NCBI RefSeq assembly: GCF_040373385.1
Contig: NZ_JBDXXH010000001.1
Location: 184,575-248,574, forward strand
Origin: Nitratidesulfovibrio sp.
GTDB lineage: Bacteria; Desulfobacterota; Desulfovibrionia; Desulfovibrionales; Desulfovibrionaceae
Reading direction: 5' to 3'
Length of the DNA stretch: 64,000 nucleotides
The notes under the pieces were generated by a model. That model searched no databases. It worked only from the letters and a program-made list of their open reading frames with translations, and was not told the DNA's origin. Of the stretch, positions 9,011 through 59,453 are shown piece after piece. The number at the start of each line of letters is the position of its first letter. The first letter of the stretch is position 1. The position numbers were made by a program, and so were the translations under genes.

Positions 9011-10288
9011 ATGGCCTTGCCCGCGTCCTTCACGTCGCCGGGCCGTGGCCGCGCCGCCGGGGCGCTGCTGCTGGCACTGATCATCTCCGGCTGTGCATCG
9101 CGCGCGCCGCAGGTTGCGGTTCCCGCGCCGGGCACCCCCGCCGTGACGCAGGCCCCGGCCCCGGCGCGTCCGGCTCTGTCGCTGCCGCCGCTGCCCGCGT
9201 ACACCGAGGCCGCGCCCGACGAAATCCGCGCCGCCATCGCGGCCATGGACCCGCGCAGCCAGGGGCTTGCCTCGTGGAACGACCTGGCCCCGGCCCTGGC
9301 CCAAAGCCTTTCCTACATGGCCACCCGCCCGGCTGGCGGCGTGGCCCTGGACCGCCCGGGCGTTCGCGCGACCAACGCGGACTTCATGGCCGCCCTGCGC
9401 CAACTGTCCGGCCTGCTGCCCGAACTGGATGCCAACCCCGGCCTGCTGGCCGAACGGTTCCGCTGGCTGCGCGTGGACACCGCCTGGACCGGCTACTACG
9501 AGCCGGTGCTGCGCGCCAGCCGCAGCCCCGCGCCCGGCTACGCGCACCCCATTTACCGCACTCCGCCGGACATGCGCGTGACCGAGGTGGCCGCCTCCGG
9601 GTCCGGCAAGCAGCGCATGACCTACCGGGTGGTGAACGGCCCCAAGGGGCGCACGCTGAAGCCGTACTACGACCGCGCGGAAATCGACGCCGGGGCGTTG
9701 CGCGGCAAGGGGCTGGAACTGGCCTGGGCGGCGGACCCGGTGGACGTGTACATCCTTCAGGTGCAGGGCTCCGGCAGGCTGCGCTTTACCGACGGCAGCG
9801 AGGCCCGCGTGCTGTACGCCGCGCAGAACGGGCGGCCCTACGTGTCCATCGGGCGCATCCTGAAGGAACGGGGCGAACTGCCGCCCGACGGGGTGAACAT
9901 GCCCGCCATCCGCCAGTGGCTGGAAAGTCACCCCGCGCAGGCGCGGGAGCTCATGAACACCAACCCCAGCTACGTCTTTTTCCGGCTGGAGGAAGGCCGC
10001 GCCAGCGGTCCGCTGGGGTGCACGGGCAGGCCGCTGACCCCGTGGGTAAGCCTGGCCACGGACCGTTCCGTGCTGCCTTCCGGCGCGCTGGTGGCCTTTT
10101 CCGCCCCGGTGCCGCAGCCAGCGGGCGGCGGTGCCGTGACCGGCCTTGGCCTTGCGCAGGATACCGGCGGGGCCATCAAGGGCTACCGCATCGACCTGTT
10201 CTGCGGCGCGGGCGACCGCGCGTCCGCCGTGGCCGGGCATCTTGATGCGCCAGGACCGGCGTGGCTGCTGCTGCCCCGTACCCGTTAG
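9011..10288 (+). CDS. mltA: Membrane-bound lytic murein transglycosylase A
   Basis: About 425 residues. A lipoprotein signal (hydrophobic stretch then LIISGC, Cys at about residue 28) anchors it to a membrane. The MltA barrel domain follows, with WTGYYEPV and the YTPPDMR-like region, then a C-terminal 3D domain with AQDTGGAIKG and a conserved DLFCGAG holding the catalytic-type Asp residues. It cleaves peptidoglycan glycan strands to 1,6-anhydromuropeptides. The start is uncertain: the chosen ATG gives a normal signal peptide but has no clear ribosome binding site, while an in-frame ATG at 8912 would add 33 residues. Its stop codon begins a long hairpin element. Confidence 0.88.
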   Translation: MALPASFTSPGRGRAAGALLLALIISGCASRAPQVAVPAPGTPAVTQAPAPARPALSLPPLPAYTEAAPDEIRAAIAAMDPRSQGLASWNDLAPALAQSLSYMATRPAGGVALDRPGVRATNADFMAALRQLSGLLPELDANPGLLAERFRWLRVDTAWTGYYEPVLRASRSPAPGYAHPIYRTPPDMRVTEVAASGSGKQRMTYRVVNGPKGRTLKPYYDRAEIDAGALRGKGLELAWAADPVDVYILQVQGSGRLRFTDGSEARVLYAAQNGRPYVSIGRILKERGELPPDGVNMPAIRQWLESHPAQARELMNTNPSYVFFRLEEGRASGPLGCTGRPLTPWVSLATDRSVLPSGALVAFSAPVPQPAGGGAVTGLGLAQDTGGAIKGYRIDLFCGAGDRASAVAGHLDAPGPAWLLLPRTR

Positions 10289-10486
10289 GGGCCGTTTCCA
10301 AATAGTCCTTTCGCCCGTTGGCGACGTCAAACTTCACCTGCCGTATCGGTCAAATACGATAAGAGTACGCGCTGCGGTCCCTATCCGTAAGGTTCGCTCC
10401 ACTCACCTAACGGCTAGGGCACTCCCTCATGGCAGGCTCGTTTTCCTTGCCAACGAACGAAAATCCTAATTTGGAAACAGCCCCTG
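10286..10486. repeat. Stop-codon-anchored hairpin element, copy 1 (after mltA)
   Basis: About 200 bp. Outer arms 10288-10322 and 10450-10484 pair over about 35 bp with few mismatches. Inside the 5' arm is CGTCAAAC and just before the 3' arm is CGTTTTCCTTGCC. An inner pair CCTGCC/GGCAGG and a CACTCCCT motif lie between. This copy alone also carries a roughly 45 bp insert with its own CCGTAAG...CTAACGG hairpin, also seen at 19165-19240. Confidence 0.8.
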
Positions 10487-10526
10487 TGGAGAGCAAACGG
10501 TAAGGCCATCTGCACAGGAGACCTTC

Positions 10527-12185
10527 ATGGACCCACGCCCGTCCTCCGAACGCATTCCCGCCATCCTCGTGGTGGACGACGACCCGGTGGCCCGCACCGC
10601 CATGTGCGGCTACCTGCGCGATGCGGGCTATGCCGTGCGCGAGGCGGGCGGCGGCGCCGATGCGCTGGCCCTGTTCGACGAGCGCGGCGCCGATGCGGTG
10701 CTGCTGGACTGGCGCATGCCCGGCAAGAGCGGGGCCGAGGTGCTGCCCTGCATCGCCGCGCAGGACCCCACGGTGCCGGTCATCGTGGTGTCCGGCACCA
10801 GCGAGGTGCGCGAACTGGCGCGGGCCTTGCGCCTGGGCGCATGGGACTTCGTGATCAAGCCCATCGAGGACATGGCCGTGCTCGACAGGGCGCTGGTGCG
10901 TTGCCTGCTGCGGGCAGAACTGCTGCGCGAGCAGGGCCGCCGCCGCGAAACCCTGGAGGGGCTGGTGCGCCGTCGCACCGAAGACCTGGAGGACGCCAAC
11001 CGCCGCCTGCGGCGGGAAATCGCCGAGCGCAGGGAGTTCGAACGGGCCCTGGCGGAAAGCGAGGAACGTTTCCGCCAGTTGATGGAGAACACCAGCGAGG
11101 TGTTCTGGGTGCGCGATCTTGCCAGCGACCGGCTGCTGTACCTTTCTCCGGCCTATGAAACGGTCTGGGGGCGTCCGGTGCAGGACGCCATGCGGGGCGA
11201 CGGTCCGCGCCTGGGCACCGTGCACCCCGACGACAGGAACGCGGTGGAGACCGCCATGGCGGGCATCGCCACGTCGGCCACCCCTGTCGACGCAGAGTTC
11301 CGCATCGTGCGGCCCGGCGGCGAGGTGCGCTGGGTGCATGCGCGGGCCTTTCCCGTGCGCGACGGAGACGGCAACGTCTACCGCGTGGCCGGGGTGGCCG
11401 AGGATGTCACCGCCCGCCGCAAGGCGGAAGAGGACATTCGCGCCTCGCTGCGCGAAAAGGAGATTCTGCTGCGCGAGGTGCACCACCGGGTCAAGAACAA
11501 CCTGCAACTCATCGTCAGCCTGCTGAACTTGCAGGCGGCCTATGCCGACGGGGCCGCCGACCGCGAGCGGTTCATCGAAAGCCGCAACCGCGTGGCCTCC
11601 ATGGCCCTGGCGCACGAGGAACTGTACCGCGCCAACGACCTGGCCAGCGTGAACGTTGCCGACTACGTGGAGCGGCTGGCGCGCAAGCTGGTGCAGGCGT
11701 CGGTGGATGCCGAGGTGGCACTGGCGCTGGACCTGCCGCCGCTGTACCTGCCGGTGTCGGCGGCCATCCCCTGCGGGCTGATTCTCAACGAACTGGTCAC
11801 CAACGCCATCAAGCACGCCTTTCCCGGTAGGGACGCGGGGCGTATCGCCATAGCCGCCCGGCGTGAGGGACGGCAGGTGGAGGTGCGCGTCACCGACGAT
11901 GGGGTGGGGCTGCCGGAAGGCTTCGACCCTGCCGGGGGTGCCACGCTGGGCATGCAGTTGGTGGGCAGCCTGGTGGCGCAACTGGGCGGGCGGCTGGAGG
12001 TGGCATCCGGTCCTGCGGGGGCCAGCTTTGTGGTGCGTTTCGAGGAAAACGAGGCCGAACCCTACGGGACGGAGGCGCCCGGTGCCCCCGATACGCAAGG
12101 CGTGCCGGGTGGAGCGGATGCGCGGGACCCGTTGCGGGCCTGGTCTGGACTGGCTGGCGAGTTCATCGGCCCGGACACCGAGTAG
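10527..12185 (+). CDS. Receiver-PAS-histidine kinase (HisKA_2 type)
   Basis: A 552-residue soluble hybrid sensor. Residues 12-125 form a receiver with acidic VVDDDP, phosphoacceptor D61 (LLDWRMPG) and K111. A coiled coil (about 125-185) leads into a PAS domain (about 180-300). The dimerisation box has EVHHRVKNNLQL with the phosphorylatable His at about 319, the HWE/HisKA_2 class, followed by a HATPase domain with NELVTNAIKH (N-box) and TDDGVGLP. The C-terminal 45 residues are Gly/Pro-rich. The N-terminal receiver implies input from another kinase. There is no transmembrane segment and no partner regulator next to it. AGGAG precedes the ATG by 6 bp. Confidence 0.92.
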   Translation: MDPRPSSERIPAILVVDDDPVARTAMCGYLRDAGYAVREAGGGADALALFDERGADAVLLDWRMPGKSGAEVLPCIAAQDPTVPVIVVSGTSEVRELARALRLGAWDFVIKPIEDMAVLDRALVRCLLRAELLREQGRRRETLEGLVRRRTEDLEDANRRLRREIAERREFERALAESEERFRQLMENTSEVFWVRDLASDRLLYLSPAYETVWGRPVQDAMRGDGPRLGTVHPDDRNAVETAMAGIATSATPVDAEFRIVRPGGEVRWVHARAFPVRDGDGNVYRVAGVAEDVTARRKAEEDIRASLREKEILLREVHHRVKNNLQLIVSLLNLQAAYADGAADRERFIESRNRVASMALAHEELYRANDLASVNVADYVERLARKLVQASVDAEVALALDLPPLYLPVSAAIPCGLILNELVTNAIKHAFPGRDAGRIAIAARREGRQVEVRVTDDGVGLPEGFDPAGGATLGMQLVGSLVAQLGGRLEVASGPAGASFVVRFEENEAEPYGTEAPGAPDTQGVPGGADARDPLRAWSGLAGEFIGPDTE

Positions 12186-12962
12186 CGGACCGTCAGACCG
12201 CGAAACTGGCAGACCGCGAAACCGGCAGGCCACGAAACTGGCGGGCAACGGGACTGGCGGACTGGCGACCGTGCGCCCCGTTGCATTGGCGCGCTGGTGG
12301 CGGGTTGTCGGGTAGTGCGGCGGGTGCTCGCTGGGGATTTTGGGAGTTCTCACGCGCCGATCGCATGTGGAACGTTTTTTTAGCGTCAGTCCATGTACTT
12401 TTTTTCCCATTCACCCGGTTTTGCCTTGACTTGGCAAGCTGCCGGGCGGAACATGCCCTTGCACCGACCGGACGCTCAACGAGCGCCATACGGCCGATGC
12501 ATGCCGAAATCTCCGTGCTGCGCCACATGGCGCGGGAGGCCAGGCCATGCGTTCACGCCGTGTCATGCCCGCCTTTCATCTTTCTTCCCTCTACGCCCAT
12601 CGGACGCAGTCGTCCCTTTCTCCGGCCCAGTGCCGCATGTCCGTCACGCGGTACCGACTGGCGCGACTGGCCCGGCTGGCGCGCGCGGACCGCTTCGTTC
12701 CTCCCCCGGCCATCTCCGGACAGCCTCGCGTCCGTGCCGCCTGCAGGGCATCACGCCGGGCGGTCGCGTCCGCTTTCCGCCCCTTCCCGCTTCCCCATGC
12801 GGCGGGGCCGTCCCGTATCCAGTCATGCCGTATACATACCCCGTGCCGCTCCGGCGGCGCCCTGCAACGCGCCGCCATTTCCGCCTCGCGGGGTGCGGCA
12901 CAAACCCGGTGGACGACGGAAGCCGCCTGCCGATCCTGTCGGGCCAGGCCCGAGGAGGCACC
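12186..12962. other. Long intergenic region with tandem repeats
   Basis: No gene-like frame is present. Positions about 12190-12275 hold five imperfect copies of a 15-16 bp unit around CAGACCGCGAAACTGG. A relatively AT-rich patch with T-runs lies at about 12370-12425. A TTGACT box at about 12427 could be a -35 for the small gene downstream, but no convincing -10 follows. Confidence 0.5.
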
Positions 12963-13055
12963 ATGAGTTTCGCGGATATCGGTTCCATTGTCGGTGGTAT
13001 CGTCGTGCTTGGACTCATTGGGTACTTCATGTATGTCAAGGTGTTGAAGCACTAG
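12963..13055 (+). CDS. 30-residue single-pass membrane peptide
   Basis: A very short gene with a strong GAGGAGG Shine-Dalgarno at the right spacing and a good terminator 105 bp downstream, which together make translation likely. The peptide starts MSFADIGSIVGG, has one hydrophobic helix of about 18 residues and ends in a basic VKVLKH tail, so an N-out/C-in single-pass inner-membrane topology is expected. Peptides of this size often stabilise membrane complexes (CydX- or KdpF-like), but no homology is claimed and no partner is adjacent. The ferrosome-like locus begins 450 bp downstream. Confidence 0.7.
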   Translation: MSFADIGSIVGGIVVLGLIGYFMYVKVLKH

Positions 13056-13161
13056 CGCAACACCGGACGCATCGAACGCATCGACCCGGCCACCAGCCCA
13101 CCGGCCCACCGGCCAGCCCTGCCAGACCGACCGGCGTACCTGCCCCGCCGATGCCCATACC

Positions 13162-13195
13162 GGCGCCCTTCACCTGCGTGAAGGGCGCCGTTTTT
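13162..13195 (+). terminator. Strong intrinsic terminator
   Basis: Twelve base pairs, GGCGCCCTTCAC paired with GTGAAGGGCGCC around a 4-base loop, followed by GTTTTTAG. It terminates the transcript of the 30-residue peptide gene and insulates the locus downstream. Confidence 0.9.
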
Positions 13196-13226
13196 AGTTG
13201 TGTAAAGAGAACGGTAGGTTGAAGTT

Positions 13227-13271
13227 GATCGTGATAATCAGCCACAAAAATGAAAAAATATTGTCACGATC
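13227..13271. promoter_or_regulatory. Inverted repeat with Fur-like GATAATC core
   Basis: GATCGTGATAAT (from 13227) and ATATTGTCACGATC (to 13271) are near-perfect inverted half-sites about 20 bp apart, in an unusually AT-rich patch upstream of the ATPase locus. The left arm contains GTGATAATCA, close to half of a Fur box. Binding by Fur or another dimeric regulator is inference. Confidence 0.45.
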
Positions 13272-13353
13272 CGGTGACGGGTGCTAGCGTTGGCGAATCC
13301 GTATTTTCCGCCCTTGCCGGTCGACTTTGGCCGGACAGGACGGGGAAGGGGCA

Positions 13354-13383
13354 TTGACAGTGATTTTCGATATCAAATAAGGT
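13354..13383 (+). promoter_or_regulatory. Candidate promoter with overlapping Fur-box-like site
   Basis: TTGACA at about 13354 is followed after 17 bp by ATAAGG, a plausible -10. The spacer TGATTTTCGATATCA is a 7-1-7 partial palindrome similar to the Fur consensus TGATAATnATTATCA (about 10 of 14 positions). Repression by Fur would fit an iron-related operon downstream. Confidence 0.45.
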
Positions 13384-13424
13384 GGCGAACCCGCACGGCA
13401 CCGGGCTGGCGTGGATGCTGCCGG

Positions 13425-13467
13425 GCATGGGCTGAACATGGGCCGAACATGGGCCGAACATGGGCCG
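13425..13467. repeat. Four tandem 11 bp repeats
   Basis: Units of GAACATGGGCC lie in the untranslated leader of the ferrosome-like operon, between promoter and first gene. Copy number may vary between strains. Confidence 0.7.
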
Positions 13468-13503
13468 GACGCGTGACGGCGCACTCATCACAAGGAGACG
13501 GGA

Positions 13504-13782
13504 ATGAACGAGAGCTACAAGTACGGGTTGTATTTCGTGGGCGGCGTGGCGCTGGGCGCCCTTGGCGCGGTGATGCTGGGCCGGGGCAAGTTCGACATCC
13601 GTCCTGCCATGGCCGACCTGCTGAGCCATGGCTTCGACCTGAAGGACAAGGCCTCTGCCTATGCGGAAACCGTGCGCGAGCATATGGAAGACATCGTGGC
13701 CGAGGCCGAGCACGTGCACAAGCAGCGCAAGGACGCCGCCGAAACCGCCGCGCCCGAAGCTGCCGAAGCCGCCAAGGCCTAG
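13504..13782 (+). CDS. Small membrane-anchored protein of a ferrosome-like locus
   Basis: 92 residues: a hydrophobic, Gly-rich helix at residues 8-26 (a YtxH-like VGGVALGALGAVMLG stretch), then a soluble, charged, largely helical tail ending in an Ala/Glu-rich segment. AAGGAGA precedes the ATG by 5-6 bp. It is the first gene of a set with a P1B-type ATPase 60 bp downstream and a second RxR-motif protein. Ferrosome clusters generally include a small hydrophobic protein (FezA) next to the ATPase; equating this gene with that role is inference from position. Confidence 0.7.
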   Translation: MNESYKYGLYFVGGVALGALGAVMLGRGKFDIRPAMADLLSHGFDLKDKASAYAETVREHMEDIVAEAEHVHKQRKDAAETAAPEAAEAAKA

Positions 13783-13843
13783 CCGGATCTGAACGAACAG
13801 GCTCCGGATCACCCTTCGACCAAATCCGCAACGGACGAGGCGC

Positions 13844-16804
13844 ATGGACTATCGCATAGCACACGAACTGCCGGGGCGCCTGCGCCTGCGCTGCGCCCCC
13901 GGTTCGTTTTCCCAGGACCGGGCGCAGGACCTTGTGGCCCGCATCGTGGCCGTTGACGGCGTGGCAGAGGCGCACGCCACCGCCACCACCGGCAGCGTGC
14001 TGGTACGCTACGCCCGTCCCGCCGCGCGGGGCGAGGTGCTGGCCGTGGTGGACGGCTTTGTGGCCGGGGGCGCAGCGCGCCGTACGCCGGGCAGAAAGGC
14101 CGAGGCTTCCGAACACCCGGGCGGGGCGCGCGCGTCTGCGGACAGGTCACCGGAGAAGCCCGGCGGCAAGTCCGATGCCAAGGGTGGCCGGGGCAAGGGC
14201 AGGGCGGCAGGCATGTCTGCCGGTCCGTCATCGGGCAATGTCGGCCCTGCCGCCGTTGCTGCCCGCAAGGCGCGCGGCCCCATGGGGGCGCACCTGCCGC
14301 CGGGGGCTCCCGGCATGGCCGGTTTGCACGGCATGGCTCTGGACGGTGCAGCCCTGTCGGCTGGCGCGCCGGGCGTGGCCGGGTTGGGCGGACTGAACGG
14401 ACTGGCCATGGCCGGTGCCGCGCCTGGCGCGGGCGGGTTGATCCGCTACCTGATCCTGCGCCCCTTCCTGCCGCGCATCGTGCGCATGGTTTCCGCCTTC
14501 TTCCGCGCGTTGCCCTTCCTGCTCAAGGGGGGGCGTTCGCTGGCATCGGGCCGTCTCAACGTGGACGTGCTGGACGCGGCGGCGCTGGGCATCTCGCTGG
14601 TGCGGGGCGATTTCCGCTCCGTGGGGCTGATCACCGCGCTGTTCGCCGTGGGCGAATTCCTGGAGGAATGGACCCGCAAGAAGTCGCGCGAAAGCCTGGC
14701 CGAAAGCCTGGCCATTGACGTGGACACCGTGTGGGTGAAGCGTGGCGAGGCAGAGGTGCAGGTGCCCCTTTCCGCCCTGGCCGACGACGACCTGGTGGTC
14801 GTGCGGGCCGGGTCGTCCATTCCCGTGGACGGCGTGGTGGCCGAGGGCGAGGCCATGGTCAACCAGACCTCCATGACCGGCGAGCCGCTGGCCGTGGCCC
14901 GGCGCGCCGGGGCATCGGTCTACGCGGGCACGGTGGTGGAGGAAGGGCGGCTGGACATTCGGCCCACCGGCGTGGGGTCTGCAACGCGCATCAACCAGAT
15001 CGTGGGCTTCATTGAGCGATCCGAGGCCCTGAAGGCAAACGTGCAGGGCAAGGCGGAACGCCTGGCCGACGCCATCGTGCCGTACAGTTTCCTGTTAGCG
15101 GGCGGGGTGTGGGCAGTCACCCGCGACGTGGCCCGCGCCGCGTCGGTGCTGTTGGTGGACTATTCGTGCGCCATCCGCCTGGCCACGCCCCTGGCCATCC
15201 TGACCGGCATGCGCGAAGGTGCCCGCCACGGCGTGCTCATCAAGGGTGGCCGGTTCATCGAGGGGCTGGCGGGCGCGGATACCGTGGTCTTCGACAAGAC
15301 GGGCACCCTCACCGAGGCGCGTCCCCGCGTGGCCGAGGTCATCTCGCTGAACGGGCATGGCCGCGACGACGTGCTGCGCCTGGCCGCCTGCCTTGAAGAG
15401 CATTTTCCCCATCCCGTGGCCCGCGCCGTGGTGCGCAAGGCCGAACAGGAAGCGTTGGACCACCAGGAAGAACACGCCGAGGTCGAATACGTGGTGGCCC
15501 ACGGCATCGCCTCGCGCCTGCGCGGCAAGCGCGTGCTGGTGGGCAGCCGCCACTTCGTCCACGAGGACGAAGGCGTGCCCCTGGACGAATTCCTGCCGGT
15601 GGTCAACGAATGGGCCGCCAAGGGCTATTCCATCCTGCACCTGGCCATCGGCGGCAAACTGGCGGGCATCTTGTGCATTGAAGACCCGTTGCGGACAGAG
15701 GCCGCCGAGGTGGTGCGCGGCCTGCGCGAACAGGGTGTGAAACGCATCGTCATGCTGACCGGCGACGGGCCGGTGACGGCGGCTGCGGTGGCCAACGCCG
15801 TGGGCGTGGACGAATGGCGCGCCCAGGTGCTGCCCGCCGACAAGGCCGACATCGTGCGGCAGTTGCAGGCCGAGGGCGGCAAGGTGGTCATGGTGGGCGA
15901 CGGCATCAACGATTCGCCTGCCCTGTCCGCCGCCGACGTGGGCGTGTCCCTGCGCGACGGGGCCGACCTTGCCCGCGAGGTGGCCGACGTGGTGCTTTCC
16001 GGCAACGACCTTGCGGAACTGCTGGTGGCGCGCCACCTGGCAAAGGCAACCCTGCGGCGCATCCACCTGAACTTCGGGTCCATCATGGGGCTGAATTCGG
16101 CCTTCATGGCCCTTGGCCTGGTGGGCCGGGCGCAACCCGGCATGCTGGCCCTGCTGCACAACCTGACCACCGTGGGCGTGGCCCTGAACGCCATGCGGCC
16201 CATGCTGGGCAATGGCGCGGCGGAAGGGCGGCGCGGCGCGGATCGCAAGCCGGGCGTGATGGCATTGCCCGTTGGCATGACCGGCGAGGCAGCTGCCGAT
16301 CCGGTTGCCGCAGCGGTTTCGCCCGCCGCACGGGTTGCGGCGGGGGTGGCCGGTGCTGGTGCCGCCGTCAGGGCCGCGCTGAAGGCCACCGCGCAGGGCG
16401 CTGCCAAGGCGGTGGGTTCCATGACGCGCAAGGCCCGGGCGGCTGGTGAGACGGACATCGCCACGCAGGGCAAGGATCCCGACAAGGCCCCGGCCAAGGC
16501 TCCGGTCAAGACTGGAAAACCGGCGAAGGCTGGCAAGCAGGGCAAGGCCGCCGGAGCGGCGAACGCCGCGCGGGCCAAGGCTGCGGGGGCCGCAGACGCC
16601 ACTGCCACCGCCGTGGCAACGGCAGAGGTGAAGACCGCGCCGGAACGCTCCGGCAAGTCCGGCGTCAAGGCCACGAAATCCGCCAAGCCCGCCAAGTCGG
16701 CCAAGACCACAACGCCCAGGACCACAAAGCCCGGGACCGTCAAGGGCGGAACCAAGGCCACCGGCAAGGCTGCCCGCAAGGCCAGCGGTTCCGGCTCGGC
16801 ATAA
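13844..16804 (+). CDS. P1B-6-like metal-transporting P-type ATPase with Ala/Lys-rich tail
   Basis: 986 residues, much longer than the usual 650-750. The N-terminus has an HMA-like fold without CxxC; instead it begins RIAHELPGRLRLR, the Arg motif I associate with ferrosome FezB/FezC proteins. A Gly/Ala/Lys linker (about 80-200) precedes the ATPase core: MTGEPLA, transmembrane motif SCA at residues 441-443 in place of CPC, DKTGT with phosphorylated D484, the HPVA loop and GDGIND at 685-690. SCA defines group P1B-6, linked to iron loading. Residues from about 790 to the end are low-complexity Ala/Lys/Thr with PAK-type repeats resembling histone H1 tails. It is followed by a second RxR protein. 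Confidence 0.88.
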   Translation: MDYRIAHELPGRLRLRCAPGSFSQDRAQDLVARIVAVDGVAEAHATATTGSVLVRYARPAARGEVLAVVDGFVAGGAARRTPGRKAEASEHPGGARASADRSPEKPGGKSDAKGGRGKGRAAGMSAGPSSGNVGPAAVAARKARGPMGAHLPPGAPGMAGLHGMALDGAALSAGAPGVAGLGGLNGLAMAGAAPGAGGLIRYLILRPFLPRIVRMVSAFFRALPFLLKGGRSLASGRLNVDVLDAAALGISLVRGDFRSVGLITALFAVGEFLEEWTRKKSRESLAESLAIDVDTVWVKRGEAEVQVPLSALADDDLVVVRAGSSIPVDGVVAEGEAMVNQTSMTGEPLAVARRAGASVYAGTVVEEGRLDIRPTGVGSATRINQIVGFIERSEALKANVQGKAERLADAIVPYSFLLAGGVWAVTRDVARAASVLLVDYSCAIRLATPLAILTGMREGARHGVLIKGGRFIEGLAGADTVVFDKTGTLTEARPRVAEVISLNGHGRDDVLRLAACLEEHFPHPVARAVVRKAEQEALDHQEEHAEVEYVVAHGIASRLRGKRVLVGSRHFVHEDEGVPLDEFLPVVNEWAAKGYSILHLAIGGKLAGILCIEDPLRTEAAEVVRGLREQGVKRIVMLTGDGPVTAAAVANAVGVDEWRAQVLPADKADIVRQLQAEGGKVVMVGDGINDSPALSAADVGVSLRDGADLAREVADVVLSGNDLAELLVARHLAKATLRRIHLNFGSIMGLNSAFMALGLVGRAQPGMLALLHNLTTVGVALNAMRPMLGNGAAEGRRGADRKPGVMALPVGMTGEAAADPVAAAVSPAARVAAGVAGAGAAVRAALKATAQGAAKAVGSMTRKARAAGETDIATQGKDPDKAPAKAPVKTGKPAKAGKQGKAAGAANAARAKAAGAADATATAVATAEVKTAPERSGKSGVKATKSAKPAKSAKTTTPRTTKPGTVKGGTKATGKAARKASGSGSA

Positions 16805-16855
16805 CGGACGCATCCGCAGCAGGGCCGCGCCCGGCGCGGCAAGGAGAGGTGGATC

Positions 16856-17293
16856 ATGATCAGCAGCTTCATCGACGGCAGGGTGCGCATCCGGTGCGAT
16901 GCGCTGCGCAATCCGGAGGCGGCCGCCGCCATCGAAGGCACCCTGCGCGAAACGCCGGGCGTGCTTTCCGCCACGGCCAACCCGCGCACCGGCGGCCTGC
17001 TGGTGGAGTACGACCCGGACGCCGTGACCCAGGAACAGTTGCTGGAAGCGGCCAAGATGCTGGAAGCCTTTGCGGCGCAGGAACCGGCGGCCCCGAAGAA
17101 ATCGTGTTGCTGCCGCCGCCTGACCAAGGCCGAGGCCATGCGCATCTCCAAGCGGGGCATGGCCGGATCACTGGCGGCGCTGGTGCTGTTCGGGCTGGCC
17201 GGGCGCGAGCGGGCGCATATCGTGGCGGGCGGGCTGTTCCTGGCCTTCAACGCTTACCATCTGTACGCATATCGCAAGCGCGTGATGGCCTGA
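16856..17293 (+). CDS. RxR-motif HMA-like membrane protein (FezC-like)
   Basis: 145 residues with a good AAGGAGAGG ribosome binding site. Residues 1-70 look like a heavy-metal-associated fold without CxxC, starting ISSFIDGRVRIRC and thus sharing the GR-x-R-x-R pattern of the ATPase upstream. A CCC cluster lies at 84-86, followed by two hydrophobic helices (about 102-117 and 121-138) and a basic end. The layout matches FezC-like accessory proteins, which share the Arg motif with the ferrosome ATPase. Its exact function is unknown. The gene lies 52 bp after the ATPase gene and is surely co-transcribed. Confidence 0.75.
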   Translation: MISSFIDGRVRIRCDALRNPEAAAAIEGTLRETPGVLSATANPRTGGLLVEYDPDAVTQEQLLEAAKMLEAFAAQEPAAPKKSCCCRRLTKAEAMRISKRGMAGSLAALVLFGLAGRERAHIVAGGLFLAFNAYHLYAYRKRVMA

Positions 17294-17294
17294 T

Positions 17295-17348
17295 CGGGTT
17301 GGTTTTTCCGCTCATTGGTGACGAACGGAAAGCCTGATTTGGCCGCAG
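17295..17348 (+). repeat. Possible relic of the hairpin element
   Basis: Directly after the stop codon comes TTTTTCCG, then GACGAACGGAAAGCCTGATTTGG, which closely resembles the 3' arm of the mltA element (CGAACGAAAATCCTAATTTGG). The conserved inner motifs are missing, so this is at best a truncated or decayed copy. Confidence 0.4.
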
Positions 17349-17351
17349 CCG

Positions 17352-17654
17352 CTACGGCTTGCACACCTTGCAGGGGCGAAAGCCTGCGTCAAGGGCTGCT
17401 TTGCGCGTGGTGAACACCGCCGTGCAGGCCTTGCACGCGTAGTAGGTGCAGCCCTGGCGGTGGAAGATGCGCGACTGCACGTTGCCGTGGTAGGCGGCAT
17501 TCTGTGCGGCCTGTGTGGGCTGTGCGGAAAGGACGGCTACCGTCAGGACCAGCGTCGGGGGCAGCGCCAGCAGCAGGGTCAGCAGGACCGCCGCTGCGGC
17601 GCGCACCGCGAACGGACACGGGCCGGAACGGATGCGTGATGGTGTGCGATGCAT
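17352..17654 (-). CDS. Exported Ada-type zinc-binding protein
   Basis: 100 residues: an N-terminal signal sequence (hydrophobic stretch about residues 16-42, Ala-rich cleavage region), then a mature part of about 55 residues made of one Ada metal-binding-like module. It has HGNVQSRIFHRQGC, YYACKAC and FRPCKVCKP, giving four Cys that can bind Zn. Such modules occur in Ada and at the ends of secreted nucleases and are proposed to bind nucleic acid or serve as structural Zn sites. The ATG at 17654 has GGAGG 5 bp upstream. It converges with the ferrosome-like operon. Confidence 0.75.
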   Translation of the reverse strand: MHRTPSRIRSGPCPFAVRAAAAVLLTLLLALPPTLVLTVAVLSAQPTQAAQNAAYHGNVQSRIFHRQGCTYYACKACTAVFTTRKAALDAGFRPCKVCKP

Positions 17655-17729
17655 GCGGGCCTCCTTTGGTGTGGCCCTACCGCGAAGCGGGCGTGCGTGC
17701 AACGGATTGAGAATGCGTGCATGCGAGAA

Positions 17730-17752
17730 GGGGCGTCCCCATGGGGCGCCCC
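17730..17752. terminator. Hairpin terminator, better on the + strand
   Basis: GGGGCGTCCCC and GGGGCGCCCC pair around a short loop and are followed by TTTTGCG on the + strand. On the - strand, where it would serve the ApgM-like gene, the trailing sequence is CTTCTC and weaker. Confidence 0.6.
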
Positions 17753-17856
17753 TTTTGCGTGTACTGCGGGGAAGGGCAGCGCAGAGGGAGTGCGCAGCGG
17801 GTGGCAGGGTGACGGTCTGTTTTGCCCTGTCTGCCCCGTCAGACCTTGCCGTCCTG

Positions 17857-19143
17857 TCAGCCTTGCCGTGCGGTCAGGTCGGCTTCACCGTCAGACGGGT
17901 TGGCGGTGCCCCGCAGCACCATGTCCAACAGGGCGGGGCCGGAGGGAATGCGCAGGCCGGTGGCCGCGCAGGCGGCTTCGTCGAAGCGGGCGGCGGGATG
18001 CGGCAGCGCGCCCGGTCCGTGTAGCAGGAAGGGCACGGCGTCCGGGTGGTGGCGCCCATCGCCGCAGTGGGTGACATGGTCGCAGGTGACGCAGAGCAGG
18101 GCGTCCGGTCGGGCCGCGCGAAGCGGGGCGATGAGTTCCGCGTCGATGCGGGTCAGCAGGGATGACTTGGCGTGGGCGTCGCGGGCGTGGGCGCACATGT
18201 CCGGGCCTTCCACATGGATGAAGACCACGGCGTGGTCCGCCAGCAAGGCGAGCGCGGCTGCGGCCTTGGCGGCAAGGTCGGTGTCCGCGCCGCCGGTGGC
18301 GCCGGGGATTTCGGGCGCGGTCAGCCCGGCAGCCAGGGCCAGCCCGCGTGCCAGCGGCACTGCCGCCACCATGGCGGCGGTGAGGGGCGCGTCGGGGGGC
18401 GGCGAAGAGGCGGCGTACCGGGTGGAAAACGGCGGCAGGTCGGGGCGGTGACCGCACCCCCACGGCCACAGGGCCAGTCCGTGGGGTGCGTCCGGTATCG
18501 TGAGCCCGGCAAGGTGCGCGTTGGCCGCCGTGATGCGCGCGTGCAGGGCCGGGTGGTGGCGGGCAAGATCATGCAGGGCGTTGGCGGGGGATTGTCCGAT
18601 GACATCCTGCGGTCCGGCGGGCGTGAAAGAGGCGGGCGCAAAAGACACGGGCGTGGCGGGAGAAGACGGGGAGGCGGCGTGTCCGTCATCCCGTTCCACC
18701 ACCGTGAAGCGAAAGCCGCCGCCATGGGCCGTGGCATGGGCCGGGGCCGGGAAGACAGCGCGCACGATGCGGGCAATGGTTTGTTCCGTGGCGGGGAGCA
18801 GGGTGGCGGCTGGGTCGGCCATGCGGCCATGGGCGTCCAGCGCCACCACGTTGCAGCGCCATGCCGTGTCGCGGGGGCCAAGGGGCAGCCCGGCGGCCAG
18901 GGCTTCCAGGGGGCCGCGCGCGACGGGGTGGCGCAGCGGGTCGTAGCCGAGCAGGGCGGGGATGCCTGCGTCGGACCCGGCTTCCGCGCCGTAAGGGATG
19001 ACCTGGCAGCGACCGGCGGTGCCGGTGGCGGCAAGACGGTCGAGGGTGGGCGTGTTCGCGGCGGCCAGCGGGGTTGGCTGGCCGTCACGGGCGGGCAGGT
19101 CGGCCATGCCGTCGAGGATGCAGATGATGCGGGGCGTGTGCAT
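17857..19143 (-). CDS. ApgM-family alkaline-phosphatase-fold protein; candidate homoserine kinase
   Basis: 428 residues of the archaeal-type cofactor-independent phosphoglycerate mutase family. The N-terminal CILDGMADLP, with AANTPTLDRLA after it, is the family start. Metal-site motifs include HVEGPDMCAHA near residue 295 and CDHVTHCGDGRHH near residue 350. It is the third gene of a leftward operon after an aminotransferase and hom, under a Thr-rich leader peptide. No thrB is in the window. Members of this family next to hom have been proposed, and in some bacteria I believe shown, to be homoserine kinases. Function as glycolytic mutase cannot be excluded. Residues 150-195 are a variable Ala/Pro/Ser stretch. 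No Shine-Dalgarno is seen. Confidence 0.8.
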   Translation of the reverse strand: MHTPRIICILDGMADLPARDGQPTPLAAANTPTLDRLAATGTAGRCQVIPYGAEAGSDAGIPALLGYDPLRHPVARGPLEALAAGLPLGPRDTAWRCNVVALDAHGRMADPAATLLPATEQTIARIVRAVFPAPAHATAHGGGFRFTVVERDDGHAASPSSPATPVSFAPASFTPAGPQDVIGQSPANALHDLARHHPALHARITAANAHLAGLTIPDAPHGLALWPWGCGHRPDLPPFSTRYAASSPPPDAPLTAAMVAAVPLARGLALAAGLTAPEIPGATGGADTDLAAKAAAALALLADHAVVFIHVEGPDMCAHARDAHAKSSLLTRIDAELIAPLRAARPDALLCVTCDHVTHCGDGRHHPDAVPFLLHGPGALPHPAARFDEAACAATGLRIPSGPALLDMVLRGTANPSDGEADLTARQG

Positions 19144-19377
19144 GGCGGAACTGGTGGTGGCGTTTGAGTTAGCGCAGACACGTTGCGGTCGCCATCCGTA
19201 AGACTCGCGCGTTGCGCTCGCCTAACGGCTGCCGATCTGCGCGGAAAAATACCGCGTCGCCTTGCCCGGCGAAAAAACGCGTAATTTCCGGCACCGTGTC
19301 CGCACCAGCCATCCGCACCGAAAGACCGGCGCGGAGTATAGGGAAGCAAGGCATCCTCTGAAAACAGGTGGAACAGG
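19144..19377. other. Intergenic region with a second hairpin family member
   Basis: Positions 19165-19240 contain the CCGTAAG...CTAACGG hairpin also found inside the mltA element, flanked by GCGCAGA/TCTGCGC arms. A further stem (about 19241-19290) joins CGCGGTATTTTTCC with GGAAATTACGCG on the - strand around GGGCAAGGCGA. It is probably a diverged relative of the stop-codon-anchored elements, placed here just upstream of the ApgM-like gene. No open frame is supported. Confidence 0.5.
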
Positions 19378-19379
19378 CT

Positions 19380-19519
19380 GGCGTTGTAAACGGTCAGAAC
19401 GTGGGTAAGGGCAAGGAAAACGGCCCTTTTGACGAAGGGAGTGTACTCTTGTTGTACTCGACCGTAGTCAAAAGGGCCGTTTGACGATGCAATTGCCCGC
19501 GTTCTGGCCGTTTACTGCA
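19380..19519. repeat. Stop-codon-anchored hairpin element, copy 2 (after hom)
   Basis: Reading leftward from the hom stop: arm GTAAACGGCCAGAACGCGGG, CGTCAAAC, inner arm GGCCCTTTTGAC, GGTCGAGTAC, loop, GTACACTCCCTTCG, inner arm GTCAAAAGGGCC, GTTTTCCTTGCC, and closing arm CCCACGTTCTGACCGTTTAC. The outer arm overlaps the last codons of hom. Inner and outer stems differ in sequence from the other copies while the short motifs match. Confidence 0.85.
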
Positions 19520-20840
19520 ACACCCGGTAGCAGACGGGGGGCGCCAGCAGCAACCCGGCCGCCTGCACCTGGGCAATGGCGCCCTGAATGGCGCTGGCCT
19601 TGGCGGCGTGGGTCATGAACACCAGGGGCACGCCCTGGGGGTGCTGTCCCTTCTGGATGGCCTGGGCGATGCTGATGGAGTGGTCGGCCATGGCCCCGGC
19701 CAGGTCGCGCAGCACGCCGGGGTTGTCCGGCACCATGGCGCGTACGTAGTAGCTGCTTTCGGCATCTGCCGGGGGCAGGATGTTCGCACGGGGGGGCACC
19801 TGGCGCTGAAAGCCGGTGTTGTGCGGGGCTGCGCCGCGCGCCACGGTCATCAGGTCGGCCAGCACGGCGCTGGCGGTGGGCAGGCTGCCCGCGCCAAGCC
19901 CGTGCAGGAACACGGGGCCCACGGCGTTGCCTTCCAGGCGGATGGCGTTGTACGCGCCGCCCACCCGGGCGATGAGGAAGGTGTGCTTGACCAGGGTGGG
20001 GAACACCCCGGCCTCCAGCCTGCCGTCCACCTCGCGCACCTGGGCCAGCAGCTTGATGCGAAAGCCCAGCTCGCGCGCGAACTCGATGTCCATGCGGTCG
20101 ATGCCCGCAATGCCCTGCACGGGCAGTTCGGCGTAGGGGTAATCCATGCCGTAGGCCAGGCGGATCAGCAGCACCAGCTTGTGGGCGGTGTCGTGCCCTT
20201 CGATGTCCAGCGTGGGGTCCGCCTCGGCGTAGCCCAGTTCCTGCGCCTGCCCGAGGGCGGTGGCGAAGTCCAGGCCGTTGCTGGTCATCTCGGACAGGAT
20301 GTAGTTGGCCGTGCCGTTCAGGATGCCGACCAGCGAGCCGATGCGGTTGCCCGCGAGGCTCTCCTTCAGCGTCTGGACGATGGGGATGCCCCCGGCCACG
20401 CTGGCCTCGTGGTGCAGGCCCACGTTTTTCTGCTCGGCCAGACGGTACAGGTCGTAGCCGTTTTCGGCCAGCAGGGCCTTGTTGGCGGTGACCACGTGCT
20501 TGCCCGCTTCCAGCGCGCGCTGGATGATGGCGTGGGGCGCGGCAATGCCGCCCATCAGCTCCACCAGCACGTCGATTTCCGGATCGTCGGTGAGCACTGT
20601 CGGGTCGGCGGTCAGGGTGGCGCCGTCGGGCACGGGCCAGGCGCGCGGCTTGGCGAGATCGCGCACCAGAATGGTCTTGATGACCATTTCGCGTCCGGTG
20701 CGTTCGGTGATCCACTGGCGGTTCTCGTCCAGCACGCGGGCAAGGCCGCTGCCCACGGTGCCGAACCCGGCCATGCCAATGACTAACGGACGCGGGGGCA
20801 TGGGGCGCTTGCCGCCCGGCTTGTCGCTTTCGCTACCCAC
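19512..20840 (-). CDS. hom: Homoserine dehydrogenase with ACT domain
   Basis: 442 residues. It reduces aspartate semialdehyde to homoserine, the branch to threonine and methionine. The NAD(P)-binding [12 protein letters not shown] is near residue 20, [12 protein letters not shown] near 115, and [14 protein letters not shown] plus the substrate-site region [16 protein letters not shown] near 180-225. An ACT domain (about 360-440, [21 protein letters not shown]) implies feedback control, normally by threonine. The start is a GTG with GGGAGG just upstream; it overlaps the aminotransferase stop by 8 bp, indicating coupling. A hairpin element starts at its stop codon. Confidence 0.96.
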
Positions 20841-22017
20841 ACGACCTCCCGGAGAGCGCCTTCTTGATGCCCTTCATGGCCTGCTTGGTACGGTGTTCGT
20901 TCTCGATGAGGGCGAAGCGGACGTGGTCGTCGCCGTGCGCGCCAAAGCCCAGCCCCGGAGAAACGGCCACGTGGGCTTCCTTGAGCAGCAGCTTGGAGAA
21001 TTCCACGGAACCCATGGCGCGGAATTCTTCGGGAATCTGGGCCCACACGAACATGGTGCCCTTGGGCGGCGGCACCACCCAGCCTGCGCGGCCAAGGCCT
21101 TCGATGAGCACGTCGCGGCGCTTGCGGTAGGTGTCCACGATTTCGGTCACGCATTCCTGCGGGCCGTTCAGGGCCACGGTGGCCGCAATCTGGATGGGCT
21201 GGAAGTGGCCGTAGTCGAGGTAGCTCTTGATGCGGGTAAGTGCGTAGACCAGGTCGCGGTTGCCCACGCAGAAGCCCATGCGCCACCCGGCCATGGAGTA
21301 GCTTTTGGACATGGAGAAGAATTCCACGCCCACGTCCTTTGCGCCTTCGGCCTGCATGAAGCTGGGCGGCATGTGCCCGTCGAAGGCAAGGTCCGCGTAG
21401 GCGAAGTCGTGGATGACGTAGATCTTGTGTTCCTTGGCGAAGTCCACGACCTTCTGGAAGAATTCCGGCGCGGCTATCTCGCAGGTGGGGTTGTGCGGGT
21501 AGCTGATGAACAGCAGCTTGGGCTGCGGCCAGGTCTGGCGGGTGGCCACCAGCAGGTCTTCGAAGAAGTCGCGCCCGCGCCCGATGGGAATGCGCCGCAC
21601 GTCGGCCCCGGCAATGATGGGGGCATAGGTGTGGATGGGGTAGGTGGGGTCCGGCGCGAACACCACGTCGCCGGGCGACAGCATGGCCAGCGACAGGTGC
21701 GAAAGCCCTTCCTTGGCGCCCATGGTGGCCACGGCTTCGGTGTCCGGGTCAAGGTACACGCCGAAGCGGCGCATGTACCAGTCGCAGATGGCCTTGCGCA
21801 GGTTGGGGATGCCGCGCGACACCGAGTAGCGGTGGTTCACGCCCTTGCCCGATGCTTCCACCAGCTTGTCCACGATGTGCTGGGGCGTGGGGATGTCGGG
21901 GTTGCCCATGCCAAGGTCGACGATGTCCACGTTCTGGCGACGCAGCTGCATCTTCAGTTCGTTCACCGTCGCGAAGACATAGGGAGGCAGACGGTGCATG
22001 CGCGGAAACTGATTCAT
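20833..22017 (-). CDS. Class I/II aminotransferase (aspartate/alanine type)
   Basis: 394 residues, PLP-dependent fold type I. Motifs include [13 protein letters not shown] at the N-terminus, YPHNPT near residue 190, [11 protein letters not shown], and the PLP lysine in [17 protein letters not shown] near residue 240. It is closest in feel to the LL-diaminopimelate / alanine / aspartate aminotransferase group. As first gene of the operon with hom it most likely makes aspartate or a related amino donor for the aspartate family. GGAGAA precedes the ATG by 7 bp. Expression should depend on readthrough of the attenuator 26 bp upstream. Confidence 0.92.
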
Positions 22018-22046
22018 GGCGAAGTTCTCCGTGGTTGAAACGAAAA

Positions 22047-22065
22047 GAGGCGGCAGCGCCGCCTC
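22047..22065 (-). terminator. Attenuator terminator ahead of the aminotransferase-hom operon
   Basis: On the - strand GAGGCGGC-GCT-GCCGCCTC is followed by TTTTCGTTT. It sits 23 bp after the leader peptide stop and ends 26 bp before the aminotransferase start. The 5' arm can pair instead with GCC-rich segments of the leader coding region, providing an alternative fold when ribosomes stall. Confidence 0.8.
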
Positions 22066-22087
22066 GAACCAACGGCGCAAGCCTGCG

Positions 22088-23638: not shown

Positions 23639-23730
23639 GGGCCGGTTCCGCAACCCTTGCGGTGTGTTGCGCCTGACAGCGCCGTTCTCGTCGGCATAGG
23701 TTTCATCTTTTCCGGTTCACAGGAGTACCC

Positions 23731-24792
23731 ATGAGCGGCAACACCTTCGGTCGCATCTTCCGGCTGACCACCTACGGCGAATCGCACGGCCCCGGCCTTG
23801 GCGGCGTGGTGGACGGCTGCCCCGCCGGGGTGCCGCTGGACGAATCGATCATCCAGCGCGAACTGGACCTGCGCCGCCCCGGCAACGCATCCGCCGGTCT
23901 TGCAGGCACCGCACGCAAGGAACCGGACACCGTGCGCCTGCTTTCCGGCGTGTTCGAGGGGGTCACCACCGGCACCCCCATCGGCTTCCACATCGCCAAC
24001 GAAGACCAGCGCTCGCGCGACTACGGCGACCTGGCCAAGCTGTACCGCCCCGGCCACGCGGACATCACCTACGACGCCAAGTACGGCCTGCGCGACTTTC
24101 GCGGCGGCGGCCGGGCATCGGGGCGCGAGACCGTCTCGCGCGTGGCGGGTGGCGCCGTGGCCCTTGCCCTGCTGGCCATGCACGACATTTCGGTGCGCGC
24201 CTACACCGTGGAGATCGGCGGCGTGCCCGCCGACGTCGTGGACCCGGCGGGCGCGCAGGAGCGGATGTTCTTTTCGCCCGACCCGGACGTGGTGCCCGCG
24301 TGGGAATCGCTGGTGCACGACGTGCGGGCCGAGGGCGACACCCTGGGCGGCATCGTGCAGGTGGAGGCCACCGGCGTGCCTGCGGGCCTCGGTGAGCCGG
24401 TGTTCGACAAGCTGGATGCCCTGCTGGCCCACGCCCTGATGTCCGTGGGCGCGGTAAAGGCCGTGGAGGTGGGCGCGGGGCTGGAAGCGGCGCGCCTGCG
24501 CGGCAGCGAGAACAACGACCCCATCATTCCCGGCGGCTTTCACACCAACCATGCGGGCGGCATTCTGGGCGGCATATCCAACGGGCAGCCCATCGTGCTG
24601 CGCGCGGCGGTAAAGCCCATCCCCTCCATCGCGCAGGAGCAGATCACCATCGACACCAACGGCAGGCCCGCGCCCATACAGGTGGCTGGCCGTCACGACA
24701 TCTGCGCCATCCCGCGCGTGGTGCCGGTGCTCAAGGCCATGGCGGCGCTGGTGTTGGCGGACAGTCTCCTTCTCCAGCGCCGCATGGGCTAG
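23731..24792 (+). CDS. aroC: Chorismate synthase
   Basis: 353 residues. It converts EPSP to chorismate using reduced FMN, the last shared aromatic step. Family motifs are [20 protein letters not shown] at the N-terminus, [14 protein letters not shown] plus [20 protein letters not shown] near residues 108-145, and [20 protein letters not shown] near 270. AGGAG lies 6 bp before the ATG. Its stop codon opens a hairpin element. Confidence 0.97.
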
Positions 24793-24922
24793 GCAAATCG
24801 CGCCAGTTTGCCTTCGGGCCACGTCAAACATCGTTTTTTGCTCCGGTCGTGTATGGAAGAATACACTCCCTTCGCAAAAAACTCGTTTTCCTTGCCGGAA
24901 GGCAAACTGACGCGATTTGCGA
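24790..24922. repeat. Stop-codon-anchored hairpin element, copy 3 (after aroC)
   Basis: Outer arms 24792-24817 and 24895-24920 pair over 25 bp with one bulge and one C-A mismatch that would be G-U on the other strand. Inner features are CGTCAAAC, inner arm CGTTTTTTGC, GGTCGTGTAT, loop, ATACACTCCC, inner arm GCAAAAAAC, and GTTTTCCTTGCC. Confidence 0.85.
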
Positions 24923-50532: not shown

Positions 50533-50541
50533 GTCGGGTCG

Positions 50542-58093: not shown

Positions 58094-58141
58094 GTCCGGC
58101 GCAAGCCGGCGACGCGCCCCGCATCCCAACGGAGCGACGGC

Positions 58142-59329
58142 ATGTCCAGACGGGACGAGGCGAAGCGGGACAGGGCGGATACGGCGGGCGACTGGCAGGC
58201 CGAGCGGCGCAGGGCGCTGGCGGATGCCCGTTGCATCGTGCTCAAGGTGGGCAGCGCCGTGCTGACCAACGGCGATGGGCTGGACCTTGCCATGGTGGAA
58301 TCGCTGGCGGACCAGCTTTCCGCCCTGCAGGAAGGCGGGCGGCGCGTGGTGCTGGTGTCTTCCGGCGCGGTGGCGGCGGGGCGCGGCGTGCTGCGCAGTT
58401 GCTGCGAGATTGCGGGCATGCCCCACCGGCAGGCGGCATCGGCCATCGGGCAGAGCCGCCTGATGCATCATTATGATGAAGCCTTCGCCCGGCGCGGGCG
58501 CATATCGGCCCAGGTGCTGCTGACCCGCGACGACCTGAAGAGCCGCAACCGCTTTCTCAACGCCCGCAACACCTTTGCCGCGCTGCTCGACTGGGGCGCC
58601 ATTCCCGTGGTCAACGAGAACGACACCGTGGCCGTGCACGACCTGAAGTTCGGCGACAACGACTGTCTGGCCAGCCTGCTGCTGAACATCGTGGAAGCCG
58701 ACCTGTTCGTGAACCTGACCTCGGCGGGCGGCGTGTTCGCGCAAAATCCGCAGAACAACCCCGATGCCTGCGTCATGGACTGCATCGACGACGTGCACGG
58801 GCTGGATCTGGACGGGCTGTGCGGCGGCAAGACCTCCGTGGGCACCGGCGGCATGTATTCCAAGCTGCTGTCCGCGCGGCGCGCCGCGCAGATCGGCGTG
58901 CCCACGCTCATCGTGCCCGGCCGCGAGCCCGACGTGCTGGCCCGCGCCTTCGCGGGCGAGGCCATAGGCACCTGGGTGCGCGCCGACGTCAGGACGGTTT
59001 CGCGCCGCAAGTACTGGCTGGCCTACCAGTCGGACCCGGCGGGCACCGTCACCGTGGACGAAGGCGCGGCCCACGCGCTGCTGCAAGGTGGCAAAAGCCT
59101 GCTGCCCGGCGGGGTATGCGCGGTAGAGGGGGGCTTCGGCTCCGGCGCGCTGGTGCGCGTGGCCGCCCAGGACGGCACGGTCATCGGGGTGGGGCTGTCC
59201 AACTATGCGGCGGCTGAGCTGCGGCGCATCATGGGCCACAAGCGCCACGAGGTGGCGGCCCTTCTGGGTGACGCGCACTATCCCGAGGTTATTCACCGCG
59301 ACAACCTGTTGCTGGATGCCGTGGTTTAG
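58142..59329 (+). CDS. proB: Glutamate 5-kinase
   Basis: 395 residues. It phosphorylates glutamate in proline synthesis. The amino acid kinase domain has VLKVGSAVLT near residue 34, LVSSGAVAAGRG, NENDTVAVHDLKFGDNDCLAS and GTGGMYSKLLSAR; a C-terminal PUA domain (about 300-385, GAAHALLQGGKSLLPGGV) completes it. An Arg/Asp-rich 28-residue N-terminal extension precedes the core. The obgE-proB order is common. Its TAG stop begins a hairpin element. Confidence 0.96.
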   Translation: MSRRDEAKRDRADTAGDWQAERRRALADARCIVLKVGSAVLTNGDGLDLAMVESLADQLSALQEGGRRVVLVSSGAVAAGRGVLRSCCEIAGMPHRQAASAIGQSRLMHHYDEAFARRGRISAQVLLTRDDLKSRNRFLNARNTFAALLDWGAIPVVNENDTVAVHDLKFGDNDCLASLLLNIVEADLFVNLTSAGGVFAQNPQNNPDACVMDCIDDVHGLDLDGLCGGKTSVGTGGMYSKLLSARRAAQIGVPTLIVPGREPDVLARAFAGEAIGTWVRADVRTVSRRKYWLAYQSDPAGTVTVDEGAAHALLQGGKSLLPGGVCAVEGGFGSGALVRVAAQDGTVIGVGLSNYAAAELRRIMGHKRHEVAALLGDAHYPEVIHRDNLLLDAVV

Positions 59330-59453
59330 TCGCGAGGATTTTGCCGCATGGCGGCGTCAAACAGGGATGGTTGCTGCGGTCGAGTACCACAAAAGTACAC
59401 TCCCTCCGCAACCATCCTGTTTTCCTTGCCCTGCGGCAAACTTCTCGCGACGA
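59327..59453. repeat. Stop-codon-anchored hairpin element, copy 4 (after proB)
   Basis: Outer arms 59329-59348 and 59432-59451 (20 bp, two mismatches). Between them are CGTCAAAC (59355-59362), inner arm CAGGGATGGTTGC, GGTCGAGTAC, loop, GTACACTCCCT, inner arm GCAACCATCCTG (59408-59419) and TTTTCCTTGCC. Confidence 0.85.

Follow-up and report, generated by a model that had tools for sequence, protein, structure and literature searches.

Palindromic elements at stop codons in Nitratidesulfovibrio and its relatives: changing stems, constant loop modules and a possible folded-strand mode of mobility

Introduction

Why do long palindromes with unrelated stems but the same internal motifs begin exactly at the stop codons of unrelated genes? 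This question is raised by a 64,000 nt stretch of a Nitratidesulfovibrio sp. genome (contig NZ_JBDXXH010000001.1, positions 184,575 to 248,574; hereafter the window), in which a sequence-only reading had noticed four hairpin elements, located after mltA, hom, aroC and proB. The observation is real, and the family is larger than first reported. The explanation that appears best, with a probability of roughly one half, is a non-autonomous mobile element that would be read as a folded bottom strand, in the mode of the attC sites of integrons.

Four elements in the window

All four elements are found where they had been placed, each starting from a stop codon (TAG, TAA, TAG and TAG, respectively); the hom element is on the minus strand, the same as the hom gene. 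By Pfam, the host genes encode MltA with 3D, homoserine dehydrogenase, chorismate synthase, and AA-kinase with PUA, as for proB. The elements and their parts are the following.

10286..10486, plus strand: element 1, beginning at the mltA stop TAG; homologous-arm type, carries a nested insert
10325..10332, plus strand: element 1, CGTCAAAC, covers the GTC module on the 5' side of internal loop 1 and the first part of the inner stem
about 10367..10420, plus strand: element 1, nested palindromic insert near the apical stem (limits by eye)
10440..10451, plus strand: element 1, GTTTTCCTTGCC, covers the last part of the inner stem and the TCC module on the 3' side of internal loop 1
19380..19519, minus strand: element 2, beginning at the hom stop TAA (19512-19514, minus strand); arms unrelated to those of element 1
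19410..19421, minus strand: element 2, GTTTTCCTTGCC
19436..19446, minus strand: element 2, GTACACTCCCT, apical stem and TCC module of internal loop 2
24790..24922, plus strand: element 3, beginning at the aroC stop TAG
24822..24829, plus strand: element 3, CGTCAAAC
24885..24896, plus strand: element 3, GTTTTCCTTGCC
59327..59453, plus strand: element 4, beginning at the TAG stop of the proB-like gene
59355..59362, plus strand: element 4, CGTCAAAC
59419..59430, plus strand: element 4, GTTTTCCTTGCC

The palindromes are imperfect and have in common CGTCAAAC, a small apical hairpin between GGTC and CTCCCT, and GTTTTCCTTGCC. The motifs reported earlier are present in all four, except that the mltA copy has GGTCAAATA in place of GGTCG(A/T)GTA. 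The arms, described as unrelated in each copy, are so in the hom, aroC and proB copies; the mltA copy belongs, by eye, to a majority type with homologous arms. From the outside in, an element consists of an outer stem, internal loop 1, an inner stem, internal loop 2 and an apical stem, measures about 125-200 nt and encodes no protein. Both internal loops contain the same module, a G-C pair beside T.C and C.T mismatches (GTC..TCC), which on the strand opposite the gene is a tandem G.A. Among 31 diverse cores, T.C and C.T are present in 27 and 31, respectively, in loop 1 and in 28 and 29 in loop 2, and the copies pair by different sequences around these fixed modules, in agreement with the initial view of a single family with changing stems and constant motifs. 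Elements 2-4, the three covered by z-score folding, are much more stable than their dinucleotide shuffles on either strand, with DNA and with RNA energies (z from -7.7 to -14.6).

Nested palindromic inserts of ~50-75 nt, hairpins within the hairpin of the types CCGTAAG..CTCGC / GCGAG..CTAACGG, are seen by eye at recurring positions (window 10367-10420 and loci L001, L010, L011, L013, L016, L022 and L023).

A family in the genome and beyond

The exact motif pair occurs 27 times in the genome, compared with 0 for the reversed pattern, so the family is not a product of chance; by eye, 24 of these copies have homologous arms and three (hom, aroC and proB) are arm-divergent. A covariance model built from 14 insert-free copies (R1; hom, aroC and proB copies included, mltA copy not) re-finds the window elements at 10286-10480 (plus), 19384-19519 (minus), 24790-24921 (plus) and 59320-59458 (plus), and no fifth window copy at E<=1. 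In the whole genome, R1 has at least 124 matches at E<=1, a count that takes in the training copies, so that the further copies sought by covariance do exist.

The exact motif pair is limited to the genus (8 of 39 genomes searched, own genome included). R1 reaches further, with matches in 19 of 59 genomes sampled from the family of the window and in 14 of 44 genera, own genome included. A pattern match in a metagenome-assembled genome (MAG) labelled as Clostridia (L089) scores 55.7 bits by R1 and starts at the TAA of an open reading frame (ORF). A core model of 31 diverse copies, five of them from this MAG, was run on 297 genomes from the phylum of the window and on 200 from the order of the MAG, with matches in 29 and 47, respectively. 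Tandem copies are frequent. The copy numbers are lower bounds, with up to 150 (own genome), 54 (family), 14 (phylum) and 21 (Clostridia order) candidates scored per genome, and the E-values are rough.

No described relative was found. Rfam 15 gives no match in the window at gathering scores and two weak, unrelated ones at E<=5 in seven loci, and a search of open-licence literature, subscription papers and preprints lying outside it, gave no description of the family. One typical copy compared with phage and plasmid collections has no match at E<=1e-5. Viral carriers were considered and rejected: six viral contigs fit the motif pattern and none fits R1 at E<=0.001.

Several observations bear on the diversity of the family. 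Related cores lie within classic repeats with long terminal inverted repeats, resembling miniature inverted-repeat transposable elements (MITEs; L220-L248, genomes G082 and G084); these more diverged relatives give 91 model matches in an Oscillospiraceae MAG and 12 in a Ruminococcus MAG. In three genomes, copies follow an apparent DNA polymerase I gene (L363, L365 and L198 in G194, G250 and G062; gene by eye), one of these sites being an array of five copies with a period of 152. In another tandem array (L460, 1825-1912), the left and right inner-stem arms of one copy are of different types, a pattern that recombination between neighbouring copies might leave.

Placement at stop codons

The lock to stop codons claimed from the four window copies holds for the family in this lineage. 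Among 146 distinct hits, 98 start exactly at the in-frame stop of a frame of >=90 codons, in the gene direction, and 115 have such a stop within 9 nt of the left end, namely TAG in 96, TAA in 17 and TGA in 2, compared with TGA 37, TAG 35 and TAA 13 at the ends of 85 greedy ORFs of the genome. The hits were drawn from 178 listed rows after removal of those that were partial, duplicate, weakest or overlapping on the reverse strand, and of those of the window itself; the loci were partly fetched by the exact motif and, therefore, the set leans to motif-perfect copies. The TGA deficit is perhaps somewhat inflated because R1 was trained on TA(G/A) starts and its left edge leans to TA. Random positions fall exactly at such a stop in 126 of 46,400 cases, and 1132 of the 4438 TAG triplets in the same loci close a frame of >=90 codons, compared with 98 of the 116 hits that begin with a stop triplet. 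In clusters fetched regardless of stops, 10 of the 14 distinct full hits are exact and one is 3 nt off, the other three being a tandem repeat, a nested insert and a copy 24 nt past a TGA. Upstream of the stop, there is no base preference apart from the triplet (by eye).

Outside this lineage, a sense stop lies within 8 nt of the stem start in 17 of 29 Clostridia-order loci (of 30; L404 left out) and in 13 of 22 phylum loci (of 30; L362, which is this genome, L373, cut by a contig end, and L384-L389 left out), compared with an antisense stop in 1 and 1 and with 3.9% and 4.4% of random positions. Placement at antisense stops was rejected on these counts and on those of the window's lineage.

In one locus (L209, 9986-13913), several copies lie between genes of an apparent flagellar operon, each after a stop codon (genes by eye).

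Pairing between sites and decay in place

Between sites, the stems vary in a matched fashion. Double changes are found at 31 of 48 pairs in the 14 copies and at 22 of 26 in the 31 cores, where 93.7% of the pair cells are paired, compared with 72.5% when shuffled and 39-53% when slid. In 104 copies, an arm scores on average 11.0 against its own partner and 5.5 against the arms of other copies, and its own partner is best, ties included, in 60. As regards conserved terminal inverted repeats, the distal arm is within 3 of 14 mismatches of a copy from an unrelated site in 48 of 98 cases, the others falling in or close to the range given by shuffled arms. Positions that vary seldom hold wobble pairs.

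Within a site, the picture is different. Copies at the same site, in 13 clusters, depart from pairing on one side in 180 cells (73 other mismatches, 55 G.T and 52 A.C, the latter two counted both ways, to or from), against 9 cells with a Watson-Crick to Watson-Crick change on both sides; these are pairwise comparisons that are not independent, with the structure taken from one sequence per pair, some flank included and genomes reused. Given this one-sided loss, pairing is not kept in place for the host, and compensatory evolution of a resident structure, as originally proposed, is not supported. Pairing matters between insertion events.

The strand that folds

From mismatches that are C-A in the gene sense and G-U on the opposite strand, the sequence-only reading had suggested that the selected molecule is an antisense RNA or single-stranded DNA of that strand. 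The asymmetry is seen in the three folded window copies and in 69 copies of the lineage; it comes largely from positions fixed in related copies, and the excess over model columns is small (149 A.C compared with ~107 G.T, one fixed G.T column per alignment left out).

With RNA energies, the opposite strand is the more stable one in 69 of 69 own-lineage copies and, at the Clostridia-order and phylum loci used above, in 27 of 29 and 20 of 22; with DNA energies, it is so in 28 of 29 and 22 of 22 of these loci. In the set of 40 own-lineage copies used for shuffling, it folds better in 40 of 40 with either. Letter-shuffles also favour this strand (202/290, 179/220 and 317/400 for the Clostridia-order, phylum and own-lineage sets, RNA), base composition alone giving the same sign in 70-85% of the copies, so that the bare counts overstate the bias. 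Random windows of the same loci show no lean (126/290, 99/220 and 140/246). The strand difference beats all ten shuffles of the same copy in 18/29, 12/22 and 35/40 cases with RNA energies and in 15/29, 14/22 and 19/40 with DNA energies, compared with a chance rate of about one in eleven.

The opposite strand is, by these predicted energies, the better-folding one beyond composition, and this part of the suggestion stands; the bias does not decide between single-stranded DNA and RNA. The rarity of wobble pairs fits folded DNA at least as well as antisense RNA; taken with the loss of pairing at fixed sites, it speaks for DNA and mobility rather than for an RNA function in the host. With respect to the replication strand, contig C3 carries 28 elements on the plus and 6 on the minus strand, compared with 9 and 5 start-site proxies, numbers too small to tell.

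Filled and empty stops in relatives

For 13 of the 14 element-bearing genes, orthologous ends were found in seven other genomes of the genus, with gaps (83 ends, 80 fetched). A model match in the gene orientation is present at 26 of the 80, in a scan that misses nested-insert copies, at least three by eye (L300, L301 and L333); three of its matches are located downstream and point the other way (L298, L302 and L303). The genus relatives, thus, present both filled and empty sites, a trait of MITEs and YPAL-like repeats. Filled and empty genomes have the same protein C-termini for several genes and, therefore, the stop predates the element. In one gene, the empty site is TAC-TAGGGGGCGGCAAC and the filled one TAC-TAGGGGC..GCGCCCC-TAGGGGGCGGCAAC. 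At one site, the empty form has a single TAG and the filled form a second one after the copy. At one stop, three unrelated elements are present in three genome pairs, one of them in front of an older copy. The comparison of species shows independently placed insertions and not unrelated chance palindromes. In single cases, horizontal gain by recombination may be the route.

As to target duplication, a repeated TAG is seen at a single clean site and where one insertion is stacked on another; most flanks are not TAG. Three origins of the arms were considered and rejected. The left arm as earlier host sequence is seen only at proB and the L006 gene. Several Clostridia loci suggest that the right arm is the gene end copied in inverted orientation; this is rejected because, in the lineage of the window, the base that precedes the stop does not predict the right flank (where this base is G, the third flank base is G in 8 of 14 and C in 3) and because Clostridia tandem copies have their own ends, CTGACGG..CCGTCAG. 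Insertion into terminator hairpins does not agree with the empty or decayed stops among the 14 printed, which show other hairpins and not the arms of the filled relatives.

At a stop that is filled in relatives, two loci (L312 and L315, genomes G002 and G005) have a short near-perfect hairpin, GGGCTTGTTTTCC..GGAAAA(C/T)AAGCCC, with part of the motif.

Candidate mechanism and alternatives

For the mobile element proposed here, we infer the following course. The strand opposite the host gene would fold as single-stranded DNA into a long rod, which a putative recombinase or transposase would read by shape, with stems of any sequence, and by the two tandem G.A modules. The copy would be placed in gene sense at a translational stop, in this lineage nearly always TAG or TAA, and would then decay.

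Apart from the lean of the letter-shuffles, several points weigh against this mechanism. The junctions are mostly unclean, with only 5 of the 62 placeable right flanks starting with TAG and 14 with TGG, and at two genes, proB and the L006 gene, the outermost arm seems to have belonged to the host before the element arrived. The lock is looser in the Clostridia order, where TGA stops are common; in other lineages the stop often lies within the outer stem, and the exact TAG/TAA lock thus characterizes the lineage of the window. A mobilising enzyme was not found: the Y1 transposase (PF01797) has no match in the own genome (G000) and partial matches in 2 of 8 genus genomes, which removes an HUH Y1/RAYT enzyme as the resident mobiliser. 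Nor was an autonomous relative with the same ends (<=3 mismatches, pairs by eye) seen in the own genome, where the 40 forward and 39 reverse ends form no pair around a stretch of the size of a transposase. In L187 and L189, the genes between neighbouring copies look like host genes (by eye).

A bolder proposal, which appears doubtful, is a separate class of mobile DNA, with a folded strand, two G.A modules, sequence-free stems and placement coupled to translational stops. Such a class would be set apart from integron attC sites and from IS200/IS605-type elements, and its insertion would depend on the termination of translation or on something that is available only where a translated gene ends. 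The order TAG > TAA >> TGA of this lineage resembles that of release-factor-1 stops or of ribosomal A-site mRNA cleavage.

If the opposite strand were transcribed across the 3' end of the gene and the folded antisense RNA regulated or protected the host gene, the better folding of that strand and the orientation locked to the gene would be accounted for. However, pairs at fixed sites decay without compensation, wobble pairs are rare where positions vary, and the copies stand after housekeeping genes that are unrelated to one another, at stops that are empty in relatives; an antisense RNA is quite unlikely.

A role of the sense RNA, as a transcription terminator or a stabiliser of the mRNA 3' end beside the stop codon, agrees with the position and orientation at gene ends and with TTTTCCTT, which follows the inner stem; moreover, in a Clostridia relative (L428), an apparent decayed copy at the same gene is a terminator-like stem with the T run GGCAGGGGTTTTTT (by eye). 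Yet a scan for terminators, taken as GC-rich stems with a T run behind them, flags only one of the three elements in 10200-25000, where terminator-like sites are fewer than in shuffles (7 compared with a mean of 9.8), the gene strand is the worse-folding one, pairing is not maintained, and copies also occur between the genes of the apparent flagellar operon in L209. All this makes such a role improbable.

It is similarly improbable that the elements are neutral palindromic repeats, folding without function, the arms of which are matched by template switching during replication. The double changes without wobble intermediates speak for this process, and template switching is a published source of such changes (PMC8794818). 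However, copies at the same site gain no matched changes, and both mismatch modules persist across phyla, which counts against template switching because the matching of arms would erase mismatches.

Comparison with known repeats

Integron attC sites stand directly after stop codons in gene sense, vary in sequence while conserving shape, are used as the bottom strand, form tandem arrays and have the end boxes RYYYAAC / GTTRRRY. The elements resemble them in structure over sequence, in the folded bottom strand (by folding energy only, and partly through composition), in placement after stops in the gene orientation and in tandem arrays. That they are attC-like sites moved by an integron integrase is, nevertheless, very improbable, given that no end boxes are seen at the printed copy ends (by eye), that there is no cassette array and that the neighbours are housekeeping genes with syntenic empty sites in relatives.

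REP/REPIN sequences, with their RAYT transposases that recognize hairpins in single-stranded DNA, are likewise numerous dispersed hairpins next to genes. The elements differ from them in being longer, in their conserved internal loops and in the lack of a Y1 transposase in this genome, which makes a REP/RAYT origin unlikely.

Copies of YPAL, or RU-2, are reportedly close to stop codons in the original paper on this repeat. These Yersinia repeats are small, non-coding, palindromic mobile repeats with filled and empty sites, near gene ends, with target duplications of 3 to 26 bp (PMC2229807), and YPAL-like palindromes are the nearest described repeats. YPAL copies have one common sequence, whereas in the elements the stems change and only the loop modules stay; unlike YPAL, the elements also show the exact in-frame stop and orientation lock, occurrence in two phyla and the strand bias. 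ERIC, RUP and NEMIS are also palindromic, with TA-type targets and a length of ~100-200 bp; they have conserved terminal repeats, and the passages of PMC2229807 on them state no stop-codon lock.

Implications

If the proposed mechanism is true, the element would solve the problem of harmless insertion in a new way, by finding in-frame stops while conserving shape and not sequence, and its existence would indicate that common anaerobes have an undescribed enzyme that reads shape. The family is also a warning that covariation between repeat copies need not mean a host RNA function. More than 100 natural copies are present in a single lineage that can be cultured, which makes it possible to test how repeats of this kind move, a question of long standing.

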